Assembly: GCA_003567315.1 (NCBI GenBank)
Contig: PWZT01000057.1
Coordinates: 1-64,000, forward strand
DNA length: 64,000 bases
Source of the DNA: Paracoccaceae bacterium
GTDB taxonomy: Bacteria; Pseudomonadota; Alphaproteobacteria; Rhodobacterales; Rhodobacteraceae
Direction of reading: 5' to 3'
Both the position numbers and the translations under genes were made by a program. Shown here piece by piece: positions 14,090 to 30,561 of the stretch (the stretch's first letter is position 1; each line of letters begins with the position of its first letter). Under the pieces are notes generated by a model. The model was not told the DNA's origin. It saw only the letters and a program-made list of their open reading frames with translations, and did no database searches.

Positions 14090-14165
14090 GCCCCTATAGC
14101 TCAGCTGGTAGAGCAACTGATTTGTAATCAGTAGGTCCGCGGTTCGAGTCCGTGTGGGGGCACCA
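14090..14165 (+). tRNA. tRNA-Thr (anticodon TGT)
   Basis: GCCCCTATAGCTCAGCTGGTAGAGCAACTGATTTGTAATCAGTAGGTCCGCGGTTCGAGTCCGTGTGGGGGCACCA; cloverleaf stems pair, encoded CCA, anticodon loop TTTGTAA. Confidence 0.97.
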
Positions 14166-22714: not shown

Positions 22715-23722
22715 ATGAGCACCGATACTGACCTGATCGCCGAGATCGAATCTCTGGGCGCGCAACTCGCCGAAGCGCGCCAGAGCATCAACCGCCGCTT
22801 CATCGGGCAGGATAACGTGGTCGATCTGACCCTGACCGCCATGCTCTGCCGCGGCCATGGTCTGCTGATCGGGCTGCCGGGTCTGGGCAAGACGCGGCTG
22901 GTGGATACGCTCTCGACCGTGATGGGGCTCAAGGGCAACCGCATCCAGTTCACCCCCGATCTGATGCCTGCCGATATCCTGGGCTCCGAAGTTCTGGATG
23001 TGGCCGAGGATGGCAAGCGCGCCTTTCGCTTCATCGAAGGCCCGATCTTCTGCCAGCTTTTGATGGCCGACGAGATCAACCGCGCCTCGCCCCGCACGCA
23101 GGCCGCACTGTTGCAGGCAATGCAGGAAGGCGAGGTCACGGTTGCTGGCGCGCACCACCAGCTTGAAAAGCCCTTTCACGTGCTCGCCACCCAGAACCCG
23201 ATCGAGCAGGAAGGCACCTACCCCCTGCCCGAAGCGCAGCTTGACCGCTTCCTTGTGCAGATCGATGTCGCTTATCCCGACCGCGCGACCGAGCGCGACA
23301 TCCTCATCGCCACCACCGGCGAGAGCGAGGGCGCTGCGCATGCGGTCTTTTCGGCGGAAGACCTCTTGGCCGCGCAGAACCTCCTGCGCCGCATGCCGGT
23401 GGGCGAGACTGTGGTAGAAGCGATCCTCGATCTCGTCCGCGCCTGCCGCCCAGAAGAGCCCGAGGCGCATCCTGCCGTGAAGGACGCGATAAGCTGGGGC
23501 CCCGGCCCGCGCGCAGCACAGGCGCTCATGCTCACGGTCCGCGCGCGGGCTCTGCTCGAAGGCCGCCTTGTGCCCTCGATCGAGGATGTGGCTGCGATGG
23601 CCCGCCCGGTGCTGTCACATCGTATGGCGCTCAGTTTCGCGGCCCGCGCGCGCGGCGAAAGCCTTGGCGCGATCATCGACCGCGTGGCCGCTGCCGCGAC
23701 CGATATGGAGGCCGCCGCTTGA
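22715..23722 (+). CDS. MoxR-family AAA ATPase
   Basis: GQDNVVDLTLTAMLCRGHGLLIGLPGLGKTRLVDTL; ADEINRASPRTQAALLQAMQEGEVTV. Confidence 0.95.
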   Translation: MSTDTDLIAEIESLGAQLAEARQSINRRFIGQDNVVDLTLTAMLCRGHGLLIGLPGLGKTRLVDTLSTVMGLKGNRIQFTPDLMPADILGSEVLDVAEDGKRAFRFIEGPIFCQLLMADEINRASPRTQAALLQAMQEGEVTVAGAHHQLEKPFHVLATQNPIEQEGTYPLPEAQLDRFLVQIDVAYPDRATERDILIATTGESEGAAHAVFSAEDLLAAQNLLRRMPVGETVVEAILDLVRACRPEEPEAHPAVKDAISWGPGPRAAQALMLTVRARALLEGRLVPSIEDVAAMARPVLSHRMALSFAARARGESLGAIIDRVAAAATDMEAAA

Positions 23723-24597: not shown

Positions 24598-27356
24598 TGT
24601 TCACCCTCGGCCCCCTCGGCTTCGCCACCCCCGCGCTGCTCGCGGGCCTGATCGCGCTGCCCGTCCTCTGGTGGCTCTTGCGCGCCGTGCCGCCCGCGCC
24701 AGTGATCCGCCGCTTTCCGGGCGTGGCGCTGCTGATCGGGCTGAAGGACGAGACCACAGAGACCGACAAGACCCCGTGGTGGCTCCTGCTTTTGCGCGCA
24801 TTGGCCGTGGCAGCGCTGATCATCGGCTTTTCCGGCCCGGTGCTCAACCCGCAGGCGGCGCGCGATGGTACGGGGCCGATCCTGATCGCGCTTGATGCAA
24901 GCTGGGCGAGCGCGCGCGACTGGCCGCGCCGCATCGCCCGCGCTGAGGAAATCCTCGCCGAAGCGCAGCGCGCTGACCGGCCTGTGGCCGTGGTGCCGCT
25001 GACCGACCTGCCCGCAGGCGAATCCCCGTTCCGCGCAGCCGATTTCTGGTCCGAGCGCGTCCCCGGCCTCACCCCCGCGCCGTTCACCGCGGAGCCGGAC
25101 GCGCTGGAAGCCTGGCTCGACACCCTGCCCGAGAGCTTTGACACTTACTGGATCTCCGACGGGCTGGAGCATGATTATCGCCCCGCGCTCAGCGACGCCC
25201 TGCAAGCGCGCGGCACGCTCACAGTGTTCGAAACCTCGCGCGCGCCCCTTGCGCTCGCCCCGCCCGAATTGCGCGAAGGCGTGGTCACTCTGACCGCGCA
25301 TCGCCCCGAGGGCCTGCCTGCGCAGGAGATCGAGATCACCGCGACAGGTCGCGATCCCGCAGGCGTCGAGCGAATGCTAGCCAGTGGCATCACGGAATTC
25401 GACAGCGACGCGACCACGGCGCAGTTGGAACTGACCCTGCAACCCGAATTGCGCAACCGCATCACGCGCTTCCAGATCGCGGGCACGCGTAGCGCGGGCG
25501 CTGTGGCGCTGACCGATGACGCGCTGCAACGGCGCAAGGTGGCGCTGCTGACCGGGCGCGAGGGGCGCGAAGGGCTCGACCTGCTCTCGCCCTTTTTCTA
25601 TCTGCGCCAGGCGCTGGAGCCTGTGGCCGAGCTGATCGAAAGCCCCTCGGTCGATGATCTGCTGCTGACCTCGCCCGATGTGCTGATCCTTGTCGATATC
25701 GCGCAGCTTGGCGAGGTCGAATCCGCGCAGATACTCGATTTCGTCAATGATGGCGGGCTGCTTCTGCGCTTCGCCGGGCCGCGCCTCGCGGCCTCCGATG
25801 TCGCCCGCGCCGAGGAAGACCCGCTTCTGCCTGTGCGGCTGCGCATCGGCGGGCGCACTGTGGGCGGCGCGATGAGCTGGGGCGAGCCGCGCACGCTGCG
25901 CGAATTTTCCAGCGATTCGCCCTTCGCCGGGCTCTCGATCCCCGGTGATGTGAGCGTGACCGCCCAGGTACTCGCCCAGCCCGACCCGATGCTGTCGGAC
26001 CGCACCATCGCAGCGCTTGCTGATGGCACGCCGCTGGTCACGCGCAAATTCTCGGGCGACGGGCAGGTGGTGCTGGTCCATACCACGGCCAATGCCGAAT
26101 GGTCCTCGCTGCCGCTCTCGGGCCTTTTCGTTGAAATGCTCGAACGCCTCGCGGTTTCCACCCGCCCCGCCGCCCTCTCGCAAGAGGCGCTGGCGGCGAC
26201 ATCATGGCAGATCGAGCGCGCGCTCGATGGCTTCGGACAAGTGCTGGACGCCAGCGACCGACCCTCGATCGAGGGCGAAAAATTCGCCTCCGGGCGTTTC
26301 AGCGCGACCATGCCGCCCGGGGTCTATAGCAGCGCGGCAGGCAGCGTCGCGCGCAATATCGGCACGCCCGAGATGACGCTCGCGGCGGCCACATGGCCCG
26401 CATCCGTGCAGGTCGAGCGCGATGCCGTGGCGGTTGAACGCGATCTGACAGCAATCTTTCTCACGCTTGGACTAGGGGTTCTCATGCTCGATATTCTCGC
26501 CGCGCTCTGGGTCTCCGGCCGGTTGCGCGGGGCCACGGCTGTGCTCGCACTTGGCCTGATCGGCCTGAGTGGCCAGCCCGCGCAGGCCGAAAGCGACGAT
26601 GACCGCCTCGCGCTGCAAGCCACCAACGCGGTCGTGCTGGCGCATGTGCTCACGGGCGATTCGCGCGTCGATGACATGGCGCGGGCGGGGCTCGAAGGGC
26701 TCAGCCGCGTGCTCTATGCCCGCACCTCGGTCGAGCCCGACCCGCCCATCGGCGTCGATCTCGAGCGCGACGAGCTGACCTTCTTTCCCTTCCTCTACTG
26801 GCCGATCACTGAAAACACGCCCATCCCGTCGGATGCTGCCTATTCCCGGCTCAACCGCTATCTGCGCGGCGGCGGGATGATCCTGTTCGATACCCGCGAT
26901 GCCGAGCTTGCGGGCCTTACCCGCACCACGCCCGAGGCGCGGCGGCTGCAGGCCATCGCCCGCCCGCTCGACATCCCGCCGCTCGAGCCTGTGCCCGAGG
27001 ATCATGTCCTGACCCGCACCTATTACCTGCTGCAGGAATTTCCGGGCCGCTATACGGGCCGCGATGTCTGGGTCGAAGCCGCGCCCGCCGAGGCCGAACG
27101 CGCCGAGGGCATGCCCTTTCGCAACCTCAATGACGGGGTGACGCCCGTGATTATCGGCAGCCATGACTGGGCCGCCGCCTGGGCCGTGGATGAAAGCGGG
27201 TCGCCCAAAGTCCGCCTCGGCATGGGGGTGAGCGGCGAGGAGCAGCGCGAGATGGCCTATCGCTTCGGGGTGAACCTCATCACCCATGTGCTGACCGGCA
27301 ACTACAAATCCGATCAGGTGCATGTGCCCGCGCTTCTCGAAAGGCTCGGCCAATGA
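24597..27356 (+). CDS. DUF4159 protein with BatA-like N-terminal membrane domain
   Basis: 919 aa; N-terminal FATPALLAGLIALPVLWWLLRAVPP; C-terminal DUF4159-like region (FPFLYWPI...YLRGGGMILFDTRD). Confidence 0.88.
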   Translation: MFTLGPLGFATPALLAGLIALPVLWWLLRAVPPAPVIRRFPGVALLIGLKDETTETDKTPWWLLLLRALAVAALIIGFSGPVLNPQAARDGTGPILIALDASWASARDWPRRIARAEEILAEAQRADRPVAVVPLTDLPAGESPFRAADFWSERVPGLTPAPFTAEPDALEAWLDTLPESFDTYWISDGLEHDYRPALSDALQARGTLTVFETSRAPLALAPPELREGVVTLTAHRPEGLPAQEIEITATGRDPAGVERMLASGITEFDSDATTAQLELTLQPELRNRITRFQIAGTRSAGAVALTDDALQRRKVALLTGREGREGLDLLSPFFYLRQALEPVAELIESPSVDDLLLTSPDVLILVDIAQLGEVESAQILDFVNDGGLLLRFAGPRLAASDVARAEEDPLLPVRLRIGGRTVGGAMSWGEPRTLREFSSDSPFAGLSIPGDVSVTAQVLAQPDPMLSDRTIAALADGTPLVTRKFSGDGQVVLVHTTANAEWSSLPLSGLFVEMLERLAVSTRPAALSQEALAATSWQIERALDGFGQVLDASDRPSIEGEKFASGRFSATMPPGVYSSAAGSVARNIGTPEMTLAAATWPASVQVERDAVAVERDLTAIFLTLGLGVLMLDILAALWVSGRLRGATAVLALGLIGLSGQPAQAESDDDRLALQATNAVVLAHVLTGDSRVDDMARAGLEGLSRVLYARTSVEPDPPIGVDLERDELTFFPFLYWPITENTPIPSDAAYSRLNRYLRGGGMILFDTRDAELAGLTRTTPEARRLQAIARPLDIPPLEPVPEDHVLTRTYYLLQEFPGRYTGRDVWVEAAPAEAERAEGMPFRNLNDGVTPVIIGSHDWAAAWAVDESGSPKVRLGMGVSGEEQREMAYRFGVNLITHVLTGNYKSDQVHVPALLERLGQ

Positions 27357-29422
27357 CCGGATGGGAGAACATCATCTTCGCGCCAAGACTCGACTGGCCG
27401 ATCCTTGCAATCATCGCGGTCTTCGCTGCCCTCATGGTGGCGCTCGCGCTCTGGCAGGGGTTGCGCGGCTGGTGGCTGCGCGGGCTTGCTGCGTTTGCGC
27501 TTCTGGCCGCGCTCGCCAACCCGTCGTTGCAATCGCAGGATCGCGAAGGGCTGTCGGATATCGCGCTTGTGGTGGTGGATGAAACCGCCTCCAACCGCAT
27601 CGGCGCACGCAGCGACCAGACCGAGGCGGCGCTCGCGCATATCGAGGGCGAACTCGACGCGCTCGGGAATGTCGAGACGCGTATCGTCACCCTGCCCGAT
27701 GGTCCGGGCAATGCCGGGACTGAGCTGAACACGGCCCTTGCCGAGGCGCTGGCCGATCTGCCGCGCGACCGCCTTGCGGGCGTGTTCGCCATCAGCGACG
27801 GGCAGGTTCATGACGCGCCGCTGCAAACCCCCATCCCGGCGCCGTTTCATCTGCTCAAGACCGGCGAATCCGACGATTGGGACCGCCGCCTCATCATCCG
27901 CAACGCGCCCGCCTATGCGATCCTCGGCGAGCCGGTCACGCTCACGCTGCGGGTCGAGGATCAGGGCGCGGTCCCGCCCGATGAAGACGGTTTCGCGACG
28001 CTGAACTACGCGATCAATGGCGGCGAGATGATGCAGGCCAGGGTCCCTGTGGGCGAGGATATGGAGATCTCGGTCACGCTCGATCAGGGCGGCATGAATG
28101 TGCTGCAATTCGAGCTTGATGAGGCGGAGGGCGAGCTGACCACGCGCAACAATGCCGCCATCGTGCAGATCAACGGCGTGCGCGACCGGCTCAGCGTGCT
28201 GCTGGTCTCGGGCGAGCCCAATGCCGGGCAGCGCACATGGCGCAACCTGCTGAAATCCGACCCGGCGGTGGATCTGGTCCATTTCACCATCCTGCGCCCG
28301 CCCGACCGCCATGACGGCGTGCCGGTCAATGAGCTTTCGCTCATCGCCTTTCCCACCCGCGAACTATTCGTGGAGAAGATTGACGAGTTCGACCTGATCA
28401 TCTTCGACCGCTACCGCCGCAGGGGTATCCTGCCCAACAGCTATTTCGCCAATATCGCGCGCTATGTCGAAGAGGGCGGCGCGCTTCTGGTCGTGGGCGG
28501 GCCTGAGCTGGCCAGCGCGGACAGCATCTGGCGCTCGCCGCTGGGAGATGTGTTTCCTGCCCGCCCGACCGCGCGGGTGATCGAGGAAGGCTATCACCCC
28601 GCCATCTCGGAGCTTGGCGCGCGCCATCCGGTGACCGCAGGGCTGGAGGCGTTGGCACCCCTGACCGAGGATGGCCCGGGCTGGGGGCGCTGGTTCCGCC
28701 AGATCGACCTCGAACCCGAACGCGGCCAGACAGTGATGACCGGGGCCGAGGATCGCCCGCTGCTGATGCTCGACCGCGTGGAAGAGGGGCGGCTGGCGCT
28801 GCTGGCCTCGGATCAGACATGGCTCTGGGATCGCGGCTATGAGGGCGGCGGGCCGCAGCTTGAGTTGCTGCGCAGGCTCGCGCATTGGATGATGGGTGAG
28901 CCCGATCTGGAAGAAGAGACGCTGACCGCGAGTGCCGAGGGCAACCGCGTGACGGTGCTGCGCCGCAGCCTGCAGGACGAGGTCGGCGAGGCCACTGTCG
29001 AGGCGCCCGATGGCGAGAGCTTCACGCTCGATCTTACCGAGGACGCCCCGGGCGAGTTTCGCGCGCGCTTCGATGCGCCCGAGATCGGGCTTTACCGGCT
29101 GCGCGAAGGCGATCTGGAAAGCGTGATCGCGCTTGGCCCGCAAGCGCCGCGCGAATTCGAGGAAACGATCGCGACATCCGACAAGCTGCGCCCGCTGGTC
29201 GACGCCACACGCGGCGGGATCATGCGGGTGGAGGAGGAACTGCCTGAATTGCGGCTGGTGCGGGAGGGTCGCGCGGCGGCCGGCCGCGGCTGGCTGGGGC
29301 TCACCCCGCGCGAGGCCTATCTCACCCAGGATGTGCGCACGGCCGCGCTGCTCCCGGGCTGGGCGTGGCTTCTGCTGGCGGCCAGTCTCGCGCTGGGGGC
29401 ATGGCTGCGCGAGGGGCGGTGA
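27353..29422 (+). CDS. Membrane protein with glutamine-amidotransferase-like domain
   Basis: 689 aa; TM segments at both ends, FDLIIFDRYRRRGILPNSYFANIARYVEEGGALLVVGGPE; overlaps upstream CDS by 4 bp. Confidence 0.85.
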   Translation: MTGWENIIFAPRLDWPILAIIAVFAALMVALALWQGLRGWWLRGLAAFALLAALANPSLQSQDREGLSDIALVVVDETASNRIGARSDQTEAALAHIEGELDALGNVETRIVTLPDGPGNAGTELNTALAEALADLPRDRLAGVFAISDGQVHDAPLQTPIPAPFHLLKTGESDDWDRRLIIRNAPAYAILGEPVTLTLRVEDQGAVPPDEDGFATLNYAINGGEMMQARVPVGEDMEISVTLDQGGMNVLQFELDEAEGELTTRNNAAIVQINGVRDRLSVLLVSGEPNAGQRTWRNLLKSDPAVDLVHFTILRPPDRHDGVPVNELSLIAFPTRELFVEKIDEFDLIIFDRYRRRGILPNSYFANIARYVEEGGALLVVGGPELASADSIWRSPLGDVFPARPTARVIEEGYHPAISELGARHPVTAGLEALAPLTEDGPGWGRWFRQIDLEPERGQTVMTGAEDRPLLMLDRVEEGRLALLASDQTWLWDRGYEGGGPQLELLRRLAHWMMGEPDLEEETLTASAEGNRVTVLRRSLQDEVGEATVEAPDGESFTLDLTEDAPGEFRARFDAPEIGLYRLREGDLESVIALGPQAPREFEETIATSDKLRPLVDATRGGIMRVEEELPELRLVREGRAAAGRGWLGLTPREAYLTQDVRTAALLPGWAWLLLAASLALGAWLREGR

Positions 29423-29429
29423 GCTACCG

Positions 29430-29635
29430 CCGCCCCCTGCTTGCAAACAGCCCGCCCACCCAACCCTCGTGGCGCGCCCGTTCCGGGCGCTGACTCGCTG
29501 TTTGCAAGCAGAGGGCGGGAAGCGAACGCGCTGAGCGTGGCCCCGCCCGCGAGCGGCAAGCAAGCGCCCGGAACGGGCGCGCAGCGAGGGTCGGGCGGGC
29601 GGGCCGGTCGCGGGCGGGGCCGCGCTCAGCGCGCC
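29430..29635. repeat. Interleaved inverted-repeat cluster
   Basis: a 29437-29450 / a' 29498-29511; b 29452-29491 / b' 29563-29602; c 29524-29557 / c' 29603-29635. See findings. Confidence 0.9.
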
Positions 29636-30519
29636 ACGTCGAGACTGCCCAGAAACGCCATCACTGCGCGGGTGGTCACCTGGGGCGCGGTGTCGGGGAA
29701 GAAATGCCCGCCCGGCACGGCCTGCACGCGCATATCCGCGAGCCACGGCGCCCAGCTTGCCCCAACATCATATTCCCGCGCCATCACCCCATCTGCCCCG
29801 AAGAGCACCAGCGCCGGGCAGTGCAGCTTGCGCCCCAGATCGGCTTCATCCAGCGCAAGATCATGCGCAATCGCTGCGCGATAATCCTGACACATGCCGA
29901 AAATCACCTCCGGCCTGCGCCACGCCGCGCGATAGGCCGCGATAGCCTCGGTCGCGAAATCCGAGAGCTGCGCCCCGCCCCAGCCCAGCAGGCAGCTCTC
30001 GAAGAAATAATCCGGATCCGCCGCAATCAGCCGCTCCGGGAAGGGATGCGGCTGCGCCAGAAAGAACCAGTGGTAGTAGCTCTTCGCTACCGGATAGCGC
30101 AATTCGCTCAGAAGGAGATGCGTGGGCACAATATCCATCAGCGTCAGGCTCGCGACCCGGTCAGGTGCGTCCAGCGCCATGCGATGCGCGACACGCGCGC
30201 CCCGATCATGGCCCACAAGATGAAACCGCTCAAAACCAAGGCTGCGCATCAGCGCAAGCTGATCGCCGCCCATCGCACGGAAACTGTATGGCGCACAGTC
30301 CTCCGGCCCCTCCTGCCCCGCCACCGCCGAAGCGCCATAGCCGCGCAAATCCGCCATGACCACAGTGAACTGCGCCGCCAATTCAGCCGCAATCGGCCGC
30401 CACATCTCGCGTGTCTGCGGAAAACCGTGGAGCAACAGCACCGGAGGGCCAGAGCCGCCGATGCTGTAGGCGATCTCGACCCCATCAAGCACGCGCACAT
30501 CATTGCGAAACATATCCAT
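29626..30519 (-). CDS. Alpha/beta hydrolase (haloacetate dehalogenase-like)
   Basis: LLLHGFPQTREMWRPIA, DLRGYG, LVGHDRGARVAHRMALD, GGHFFPD. Start MDMFRNDV. Confidence 0.88.
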   Translation of the reverse strand: MDMFRNDVRVLDGVEIAYSIGGSGPPVLLLHGFPQTREMWRPIAAELAAQFTVVMADLRGYGASAVAGQEGPEDCAPYSFRAMGGDQLALMRSLGFERFHLVGHDRGARVAHRMALDAPDRVASLTLMDIVPTHLLLSELRYPVAKSYYHWFFLAQPHPFPERLIAADPDYFFESCLLGWGGAQLSDFATEAIAAYRAAWRRPEVIFGMCQDYRAAIAHDLALDEADLGRKLHCPALVLFGADGVMAREYDVGASWAPWLADMRVQAVPGGHFFPDTAPQVTTRAVMAFLGSLDVAR

Positions 30520-30561
30520 GCGGCCCACAGTCGGGCAGGGATGCGAGCGCGTCAAGCGCGC

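Follow-up and report, generated by a model that had tools for sequence, protein, structure and literature searches.

Two inverted copies of a dispersed hairpin-forming DNA element between convergent genes of a Rhodobacteraceae genome

Results

The doublet between a 689-aa gene and a hydrolase gene

The stretch at positions 29430–29635 of the window (the whole 64,000-nucleotide stretch of DNA that was analysed, from genome G000) lies between two convergent genes and consists of two adjacent hairpin units that are inverted copies of one element. The only tRNA gene of the window, tRNA-Thr (TGT), is at 14090–14165. The features of the locus are the following.

27353–29422, plus strand: flanking gene of 689 aa, downstream of a BatA-domain gene, without a Pfam match of its own
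29430–29518, G-rich strand minus: unit 1, a class I element, beginning 7 bases past the stop codon of the 689-aa gene
29430–29451, no strand: left arm of the unit 1 outer stem (a), inverted-repeat pair I3
29451–29466, minus strand: four-GGG tract of unit 1, GGGTTGGGTGGGCGGG on the minus strand, read from the sequence; quadruplex predicted in the gquad-on fold
29474–29490, minus strand: inner hairpin P2 of unit 1, GCGCCCGTTCCGGGCGC in plus-strand reading, from sequence and folds
29497–29518, no strand: right arm of the unit 1 outer stem (a'), inverted-repeat pair I3
29519–29526, no strand: 8-nt spacer between the units, from the sequence
29527–29633, G-rich strand plus: unit 2, a class I element, from inverted repeats and the covariance model
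29527–29557, no strand: left arm of the unit 2 outer stem (c), inverted-repeat pair I2
29564–29580, plus strand: inner hairpin P2 of unit 2, GCGCCCGGAACGGGCGC, from sequence and folds
29588–29603, plus strand: four-GGG tract of unit 2, GGGTCGGGCGGGCGGG, read from the sequence; quadruplex predicted in the gquad-on fold
29603–29633, no strand: right arm of the unit 2 outer stem (c'), inverted-repeat pair I2
29626–30555, minus strand: convergent alpha/beta hydrolase gene, 309 aa (PF00561, E=1.9e-29)

The initial annotation had described three inverted-repeat pairs in the order a-b-a'-c-b'-c', with crossing helices, and this arrangement is indeed present. The a/a' pair lies where it was placed (29430–29451 with 29497–29518) and is 95% complementary over 22 nt; the complementarity of b and b', given as about 40 nt with a few mismatches, is real and forms part of a longer, 71-nt pairing of 29435–29505 with 29549–29619 (77%); c/c', announced as about 33 nt, pairs 29527–29557 with 29603–29633 (31 nt, 94%). 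As was also proposed, c' overlaps the end of the hydrolase gene: this right arm of unit 2 covers the last codons and the stop codon (29626–29628).

Six positions in the window carry an inverted repeat of at least 20 nt with at most one mismatch and a loop of 30–60 nt, while 20 first-order Markov simulations of the 64-kb window produced no such repeat. The folds of the units give z scores of –6.6 to –9.2 against dinucleotide shuffles, none of 200 shuffles folding as well. The inverted repeats at 29430–29635 are real and far beyond chance.

When quadruplexes are allowed (RNAfold with gquad on), each G-rich strand is predicted to form an outer stem, an inner hairpin and a quadruplex, and the two units are predicted to fold separately on both strands. 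The helices a/a', b/b' and c/c' cross because the copies have opposite orientations and hence complementary apices, and b is the reverse complement of b' because the units are inverted copies with a conserved apex. One interpretation in the initial annotation, a switching or pseudoknotted RNA built by these crossing helices, could appeal to the complementarity of b and b' and to the presence of the doublet in a second genome, G015 (L031). However, the inversion of a conserved apex already accounts for that complementarity, the units fold independently, so that no switch or pseudoknot is needed, and single units are the rule outside the doublet. We consider such an RNA extremely improbable and have dropped it in favour of two inverted copies of one element.

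A dispersed family with a conserved apex and locus-specific stems

A search of the same genome with the stretch also matched the doublet in reverse (71% over 29428–29624), and in related genomes the search brought up numerous single units, each about 80 bp long. The alignment of 28 units defines the architecture stem – AA – GC – inner hairpin – GC – GRGGGTGGGTGGGCGG – stem, in which stems of about 15–34 bp have a sequence that is locus-specific yet complementary. Elements are about 55–110 bp long and fall into two classes: the conserved class I apex is made of the inner hairpin P2 and GGGTGGGTGGGCGGG, whereas the class II apex is AAGGGTGGGTGGGTGG alone, without an inner hairpin. Four GGG tracts separated by short loops are conserved on one strand, the sequence signature of a G-quadruplex; the quadruplex itself is, throughout this work, a prediction by RNAfold with gquad on.

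A covariance model recognizes unit 1 at 29432–29515 on the minus strand (90.6 bits) and unit 2 at 29539–29622 on the plus strand (72.5 bits). It finds matches at E<=0.01 in 31 of the 37 genomes of this Rhodobacteraceae genus, and across 198 genomes of the order it matched one other genus, with 2 copies. The 20-nt core of class II, GCAAGGGNGGGNGGGTGGGC, has 76 exact matches in 14 of the 37 genomes, the reversed control giving 1. Some class II stems are shared (AAGCGCCCTCGG.., AGCGCCCGCG..) and the others are unique palindromes, near-perfect and 23–34 bp long; a search for third copies of class II arms in their own locus gave only chance-like matches of 8–12 nt. Three class II copies, with an identical apex and unrelated stems, were found in one further genus among 199 sampled genomes of the family. 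Beyond the genus, the elements are all but absent from the roughly 200 relatives sampled. The copy numbers given here are minimum values, since most genomes are fragmented drafts whose contigs often break inside palindromes. G015, with 77 covariance-model matches, has a large class II set built on one shared stem, AAGCGCCCTCGGGGCGTGC, and this set has the look of a recent expansion. All named records with class I elements are metagenome assemblies called 'Rhodobacteraceae bacterium', and their isolate names suggest a soda-lake origin. There is little doubt that the elements at 29430–29635 belong to a structured, dispersed family. In the searchable literature, which covers few subscription papers, we found no description of such quadruplex/palindrome repeats, and this family of hairpin-forming DNA elements appears to be previously undescribed.

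A third type of hairpin, AAGCGCCCGCGAGCGGGGCATGGGCGGGCGGGTGGGGCCCCCGAGCGGGCGCTTTT, whose loop holds a GGG tract and whose ends resemble those of a terminator, is dispersed in G001, G013, G011 and G015 at about 86–100% identity (in the downstream flank of L101, and at G013:C70:4602-4661, G001:C239:7045-7103 and G015:C107:3188-3253).

Pairing is maintained on the G-rich strand

In the family alignment 93% of the cells are paired, compared with 77% after shuffling, all slid controls are far lower, and 22 of 27 pairs have changed on both sides. At one orthologous locus followed in 20 species, pairing is 86% versus 71%, with 18 of 29 pairs changed on both sides; the covariation is therefore not an artefact of mixing paralogs, because the orthologous set alone provides these double-sided changes.

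The exceptions to Watson–Crick pairing are strand-specific. Read on the G-rich strand, the outer stems of 83 non-identical elements contain 47 G-T against 3 A-C mispairs, in addition to other non-Watson–Crick combinations; the ratio is 39:3 once duplicates are removed (p=6e-9) and 7:0 in the inner hairpin P2; the unoriented control hairpins, few in number, gave 3:4. A G-T pair on this strand is an A-C mismatch on the opposite one; what is constrained to pair is therefore the G-rich strand, whether in the form of single-stranded DNA or of RNA. A regional C-to-T mutation bias was rejected as the source of the G-T excess, as the flanks run the opposite way: in nine sister pairs, the flanks show 117 C/T and 167 A/G differences, against 15 and 5 in the elements (Fisher p=0.004).

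Two other readings meet these data. Quasi-palindrome correction, a hairpin-templated repair known in E. coli, might keep the arms complementary in place of selection, and the inverted apices found inside orthologous stems (see below) suggest that these palindromes recombine or extrude. Repair alone, however, explains neither the conserved apex nor the persistence of G-T but not A-C on one strand; we find it improbable as the sole cause, and it could contribute to the compensatory changes. Alternatively, the G-rich strand could be the functional product, as an antisense or independent small RNA, a reading in keeping with the RNA-like covariation and with the tolerance of G-T (G-U in RNA) and not of A-C. 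This we judge very unlikely: no Rfam family fits, the best match to the Rfam 15 covariance models reaching 39.5 bits for a gathering score of 124 and the others also lying far below theirs, and a fixed RNA would be altered by the inversion of the apex between orthologs, whose arms stay in place. A tRNA-like or other known RNA was rejected, as nothing relevant came from ARAGORN or Rfam.

Presence and absence of whole palindromes, and orientation of the apex

At the locus orthologous to that of the window, G015 carries the same doublet with paired stem changes, the G006 contig starts within the apex of the left unit, in G016 a left stem persists and encloses a decayed apex, a single unit is found at the hydrolase stop in G013 and G001, and G003 has an unrelated simple hairpin instead; no element is present there in G025, G032, G021 and others. 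Many orthologous intergenic regions lack the element and show no obvious replacement. The simple hairpins GTAGGGTGCGTGC..GCACGCACCCTAC form a family of their own (L066 in G003 at the window locus, L233 in G002, L234 in G035, L312 in G031) and fill the same intergenic sites at the window, L165 and L275 loci, as if hairpin families replaced one another at gene ends.

The clearest comparison is the L275 locus, where a 76-bp palindrome lies a few bases past the stop codon in G001 and G013, while the sequence of G033 and G006 runs on uninterrupted, with neither arm nor apex. No target-site duplication is visible between filled and empty sites at this locus, the only one clean enough to judge. G000 and G006 also have an empty site at the L270 locus, and none of the nine relatives compared at each locus carries the palindromes that G033 has at L163 and L162. 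Relatives differ in having or lacking entire palindromes. Insertion of a core into an existing terminator hairpin was rejected for the L275 and L270 loci, because their empty sites hold no palindrome, and so was synthesis of the palindrome from one local arm at insertion, because the empty L275 sites have neither arm; a one-arm-like sequence at the L166 locus of G001 had hinted at such an origin.

One option raised by the initial annotation, successive palindromic insertions, proves correct, but the insertion is not random: the stretch holds two copies, in inverted orientation, of a single element that is structured and dispersed. The absence of the doublet from relatives, combined with single copies elsewhere, had been put forward as a sign of random insertion of palindromic repeats; these observations do support insertion, but randomness does not predict the strong covariation.

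At four or five loci, orthologous stems carry the apex in opposite orientations. At the hydrolase stop, G013 and G001 have it opposite to G000 and G015 within comparable arms, which could result from a deletion joining two units. Flipped apices are also seen in single units (L090 vs L097/L098, L105 vs L124, L093 and L238 vs L242, L260 vs L321/L322). Some of the inversions could be assembly errors, as drafts often break inside the elements.

Position relative to genes

Positions were computed with gene calls from a simple codon-composition script, and distances are therefore approximate. In tandem gene pairs, class I stems mostly start 0–18 nt past the stop codon and class II stems 0–62 nt past it. 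In 38 of 45 tandem pairs (p=3e-6), or 34 of 41 when duplicates are crudely removed by gene size, the G-rich strand runs antisense to the gene upstream; this orientation is not absolute, the other 7 of the 45 being sense. One case was seen between divergent genes. At two loci at least (L260, L274) the element sits past a canonical intrinsic terminator and is thus not needed at these loci to end the upstream transcript.

The idea that these elements are ordinary intrinsic terminators with unusual loops agrees with their location after stop codons, where bacterial inverted repeats are in general concentrated (PMC13155455), with stems that in some cases start with AAAA and end with TTTT, and with the presence of another simple hairpin (GGTGCGTG..CACGCACC) at the same site in G003, G002 and G035. 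Like terminators, they have a GC-rich stem right after stop codons. However, the window units have no T-run beside their stems on either strand, and their loops are long (16–45 nt) and conserved; bacterial inverted repeats generally combine conserved arms with variable spacers of 4–5 bp (PMC13155455), the reverse of the conserved apex and variable arms seen here. Furthermore, wobble pairs lie on the mostly antisense strand, so that the mRNA copy would carry A-C mismatches, and some copies follow a real terminator. Ordinary termination is accordingly a rather improbable function for the family.

A copy kept at the end of the gene-transfer-agent cluster

Conservation is greatest for the copy that comes after the stop codon of the last structural gene (GTA_TIM, Rcc01698_C) in the gene-transfer-agent cluster. 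This gene was found in 33 genomes of the genus and is followed by a clear match to the element in 15 (13 at E<=2e-8, a contig-edge match in G012, and G013); 6 more genomes have weak matches at the same position, of which 5 show the full architecture when aligned, and the G025 copy has lost its G-tract. The copy is kept in about 20 species and all aligned copies have the same orientation. Carriage by phages was rejected: the sole class I match among IMG/VR viral contigs (L361) is a gene-transfer-agent contig that ends in the element. In several species two elements flank a small DUF7742 gene directly after the cluster (G000:C47:22771-22850 and 23146-23225, with equivalents in G020, G017 and G010).

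Discussion

The doublet at 29430–29635 is best described as inverted copies of a REP-like family whose G-rich strand would act as a roadblock or insulator at gene 3' ends, a statement to which we give, taken as a whole, a probability of about 60%. The family works like a REP element and falls outside the REP/RAYT, MITE and terminator groups as these are defined. As with the REP/BIME sequences of enterobacteria and Pseudomonas, its members are short, dispersed extragenic palindromes, found mostly just downstream of genes, singly or, as here, in inverted pairs. They differ from REP/BIME in having a conserved four-GGG apex and non-conserved stems, a length of about 55–110 bp, an apex that occurs both ways round in orthologous stems, and stem feet that differ from locus to locus in place of a conserved stem with a GTAG-like tetranucleotide foot. 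Most carriers also lack a RAYT gene: the PF01797 profile scores above cut-off in only 2 of the 37 genomes of the genus, and G000, G015 and G013 have no such gene, which led us to reject mobilization by RAYT. In the whole genus just two Y1-type transposase genes exceed the cut-off, at G001:C167:1080-1436 (L145) and G029:C406:2312-2647 (L146). Non-autonomous palindromic transposons (MITEs, IS200/IS605-derived elements) share with the family presence or absence as whole units and a hairpin on one defined strand, but here the arms differ at every locus, in place of constant terminal inverted repeats, no related transposase was found, and the one clean empty site lacks a visible target-site duplication. 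Finally, an intergenic quadruplex repeat of Xanthomonas and Nostoc, presented in the abstract of its description among short simple sequence repeats (PMC4692102), is likewise repeated intergenic DNA with a G-tract predicted to form a quadruplex; the G-tract here differs from it in being the apex of a covarying palindrome.

What the hairpin does is a more tentative matter. The G-rich strand, which in most cases is the template for transcription of the upstream gene, may be exposed as single-stranded DNA and fold into a quadruplex-capped hairpin, which would stall RNA polymerase and thereby insulate the 3' end of the gene. Such a roadblock or insulator is, with odds somewhat below even, the role that we find most likely, given that the strand under constraint mostly serves as template for the gene upstream; a role as simple terminator is argued against because a proper terminator precedes the element at two loci. 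The gene-transfer-agent copy would then be the most firmly domesticated one.

Nearly as likely as the roadblock, and doubtful in its own right, is a selfish, non-autonomous single-stranded-DNA element whose transposase has been lost or goes unrecognized: its G-strand hairpin would be recognized by a transposase acting in trans, and gene 3' ends would be tolerated targets. Selfish single-stranded mobile hairpins, past or present, suit most of the same facts, as the copies are dispersed, present or absent between relatives and matched by clean empty sites, the pairing is specific to the G strand, and the set in G015 is large. Against this, beside the missing Y1/RAYT gene in the window's genome and in the copy-rich G015 and G013, the sisters G001 and G013 have most class I copies in common, which makes frequent present transposition look unlikely, no near-identical donor was seen for class I or for unique-stem class II copies, and one locus is held in about 20 species in a single orientation.

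The roadblock reading can be extended to a new kind of strand-specific DNA device, in which quadruplex-capped palindromes insert at gene ends, the apex is fixed in sequence and flips in place, the long stems vary freely under template-strand pairing, and one copy was recruited ancestrally to mark where the gene-transfer-agent cluster ends and to block or gate transcription at that point; in this full form we hold it to be unlikely.

The family reverses the usual relation between arm and apex conservation (PMC13155455), and its strand-specific wobble reveals which strand is constrained. It therefore offers a natural test of the function of a quadruplex-capped hairpin on the template strand, and of the way in which palindromes evolve and flip, and the gene-transfer-agent copy provides a concrete locus where this could be tested in a cultured member of the genus.
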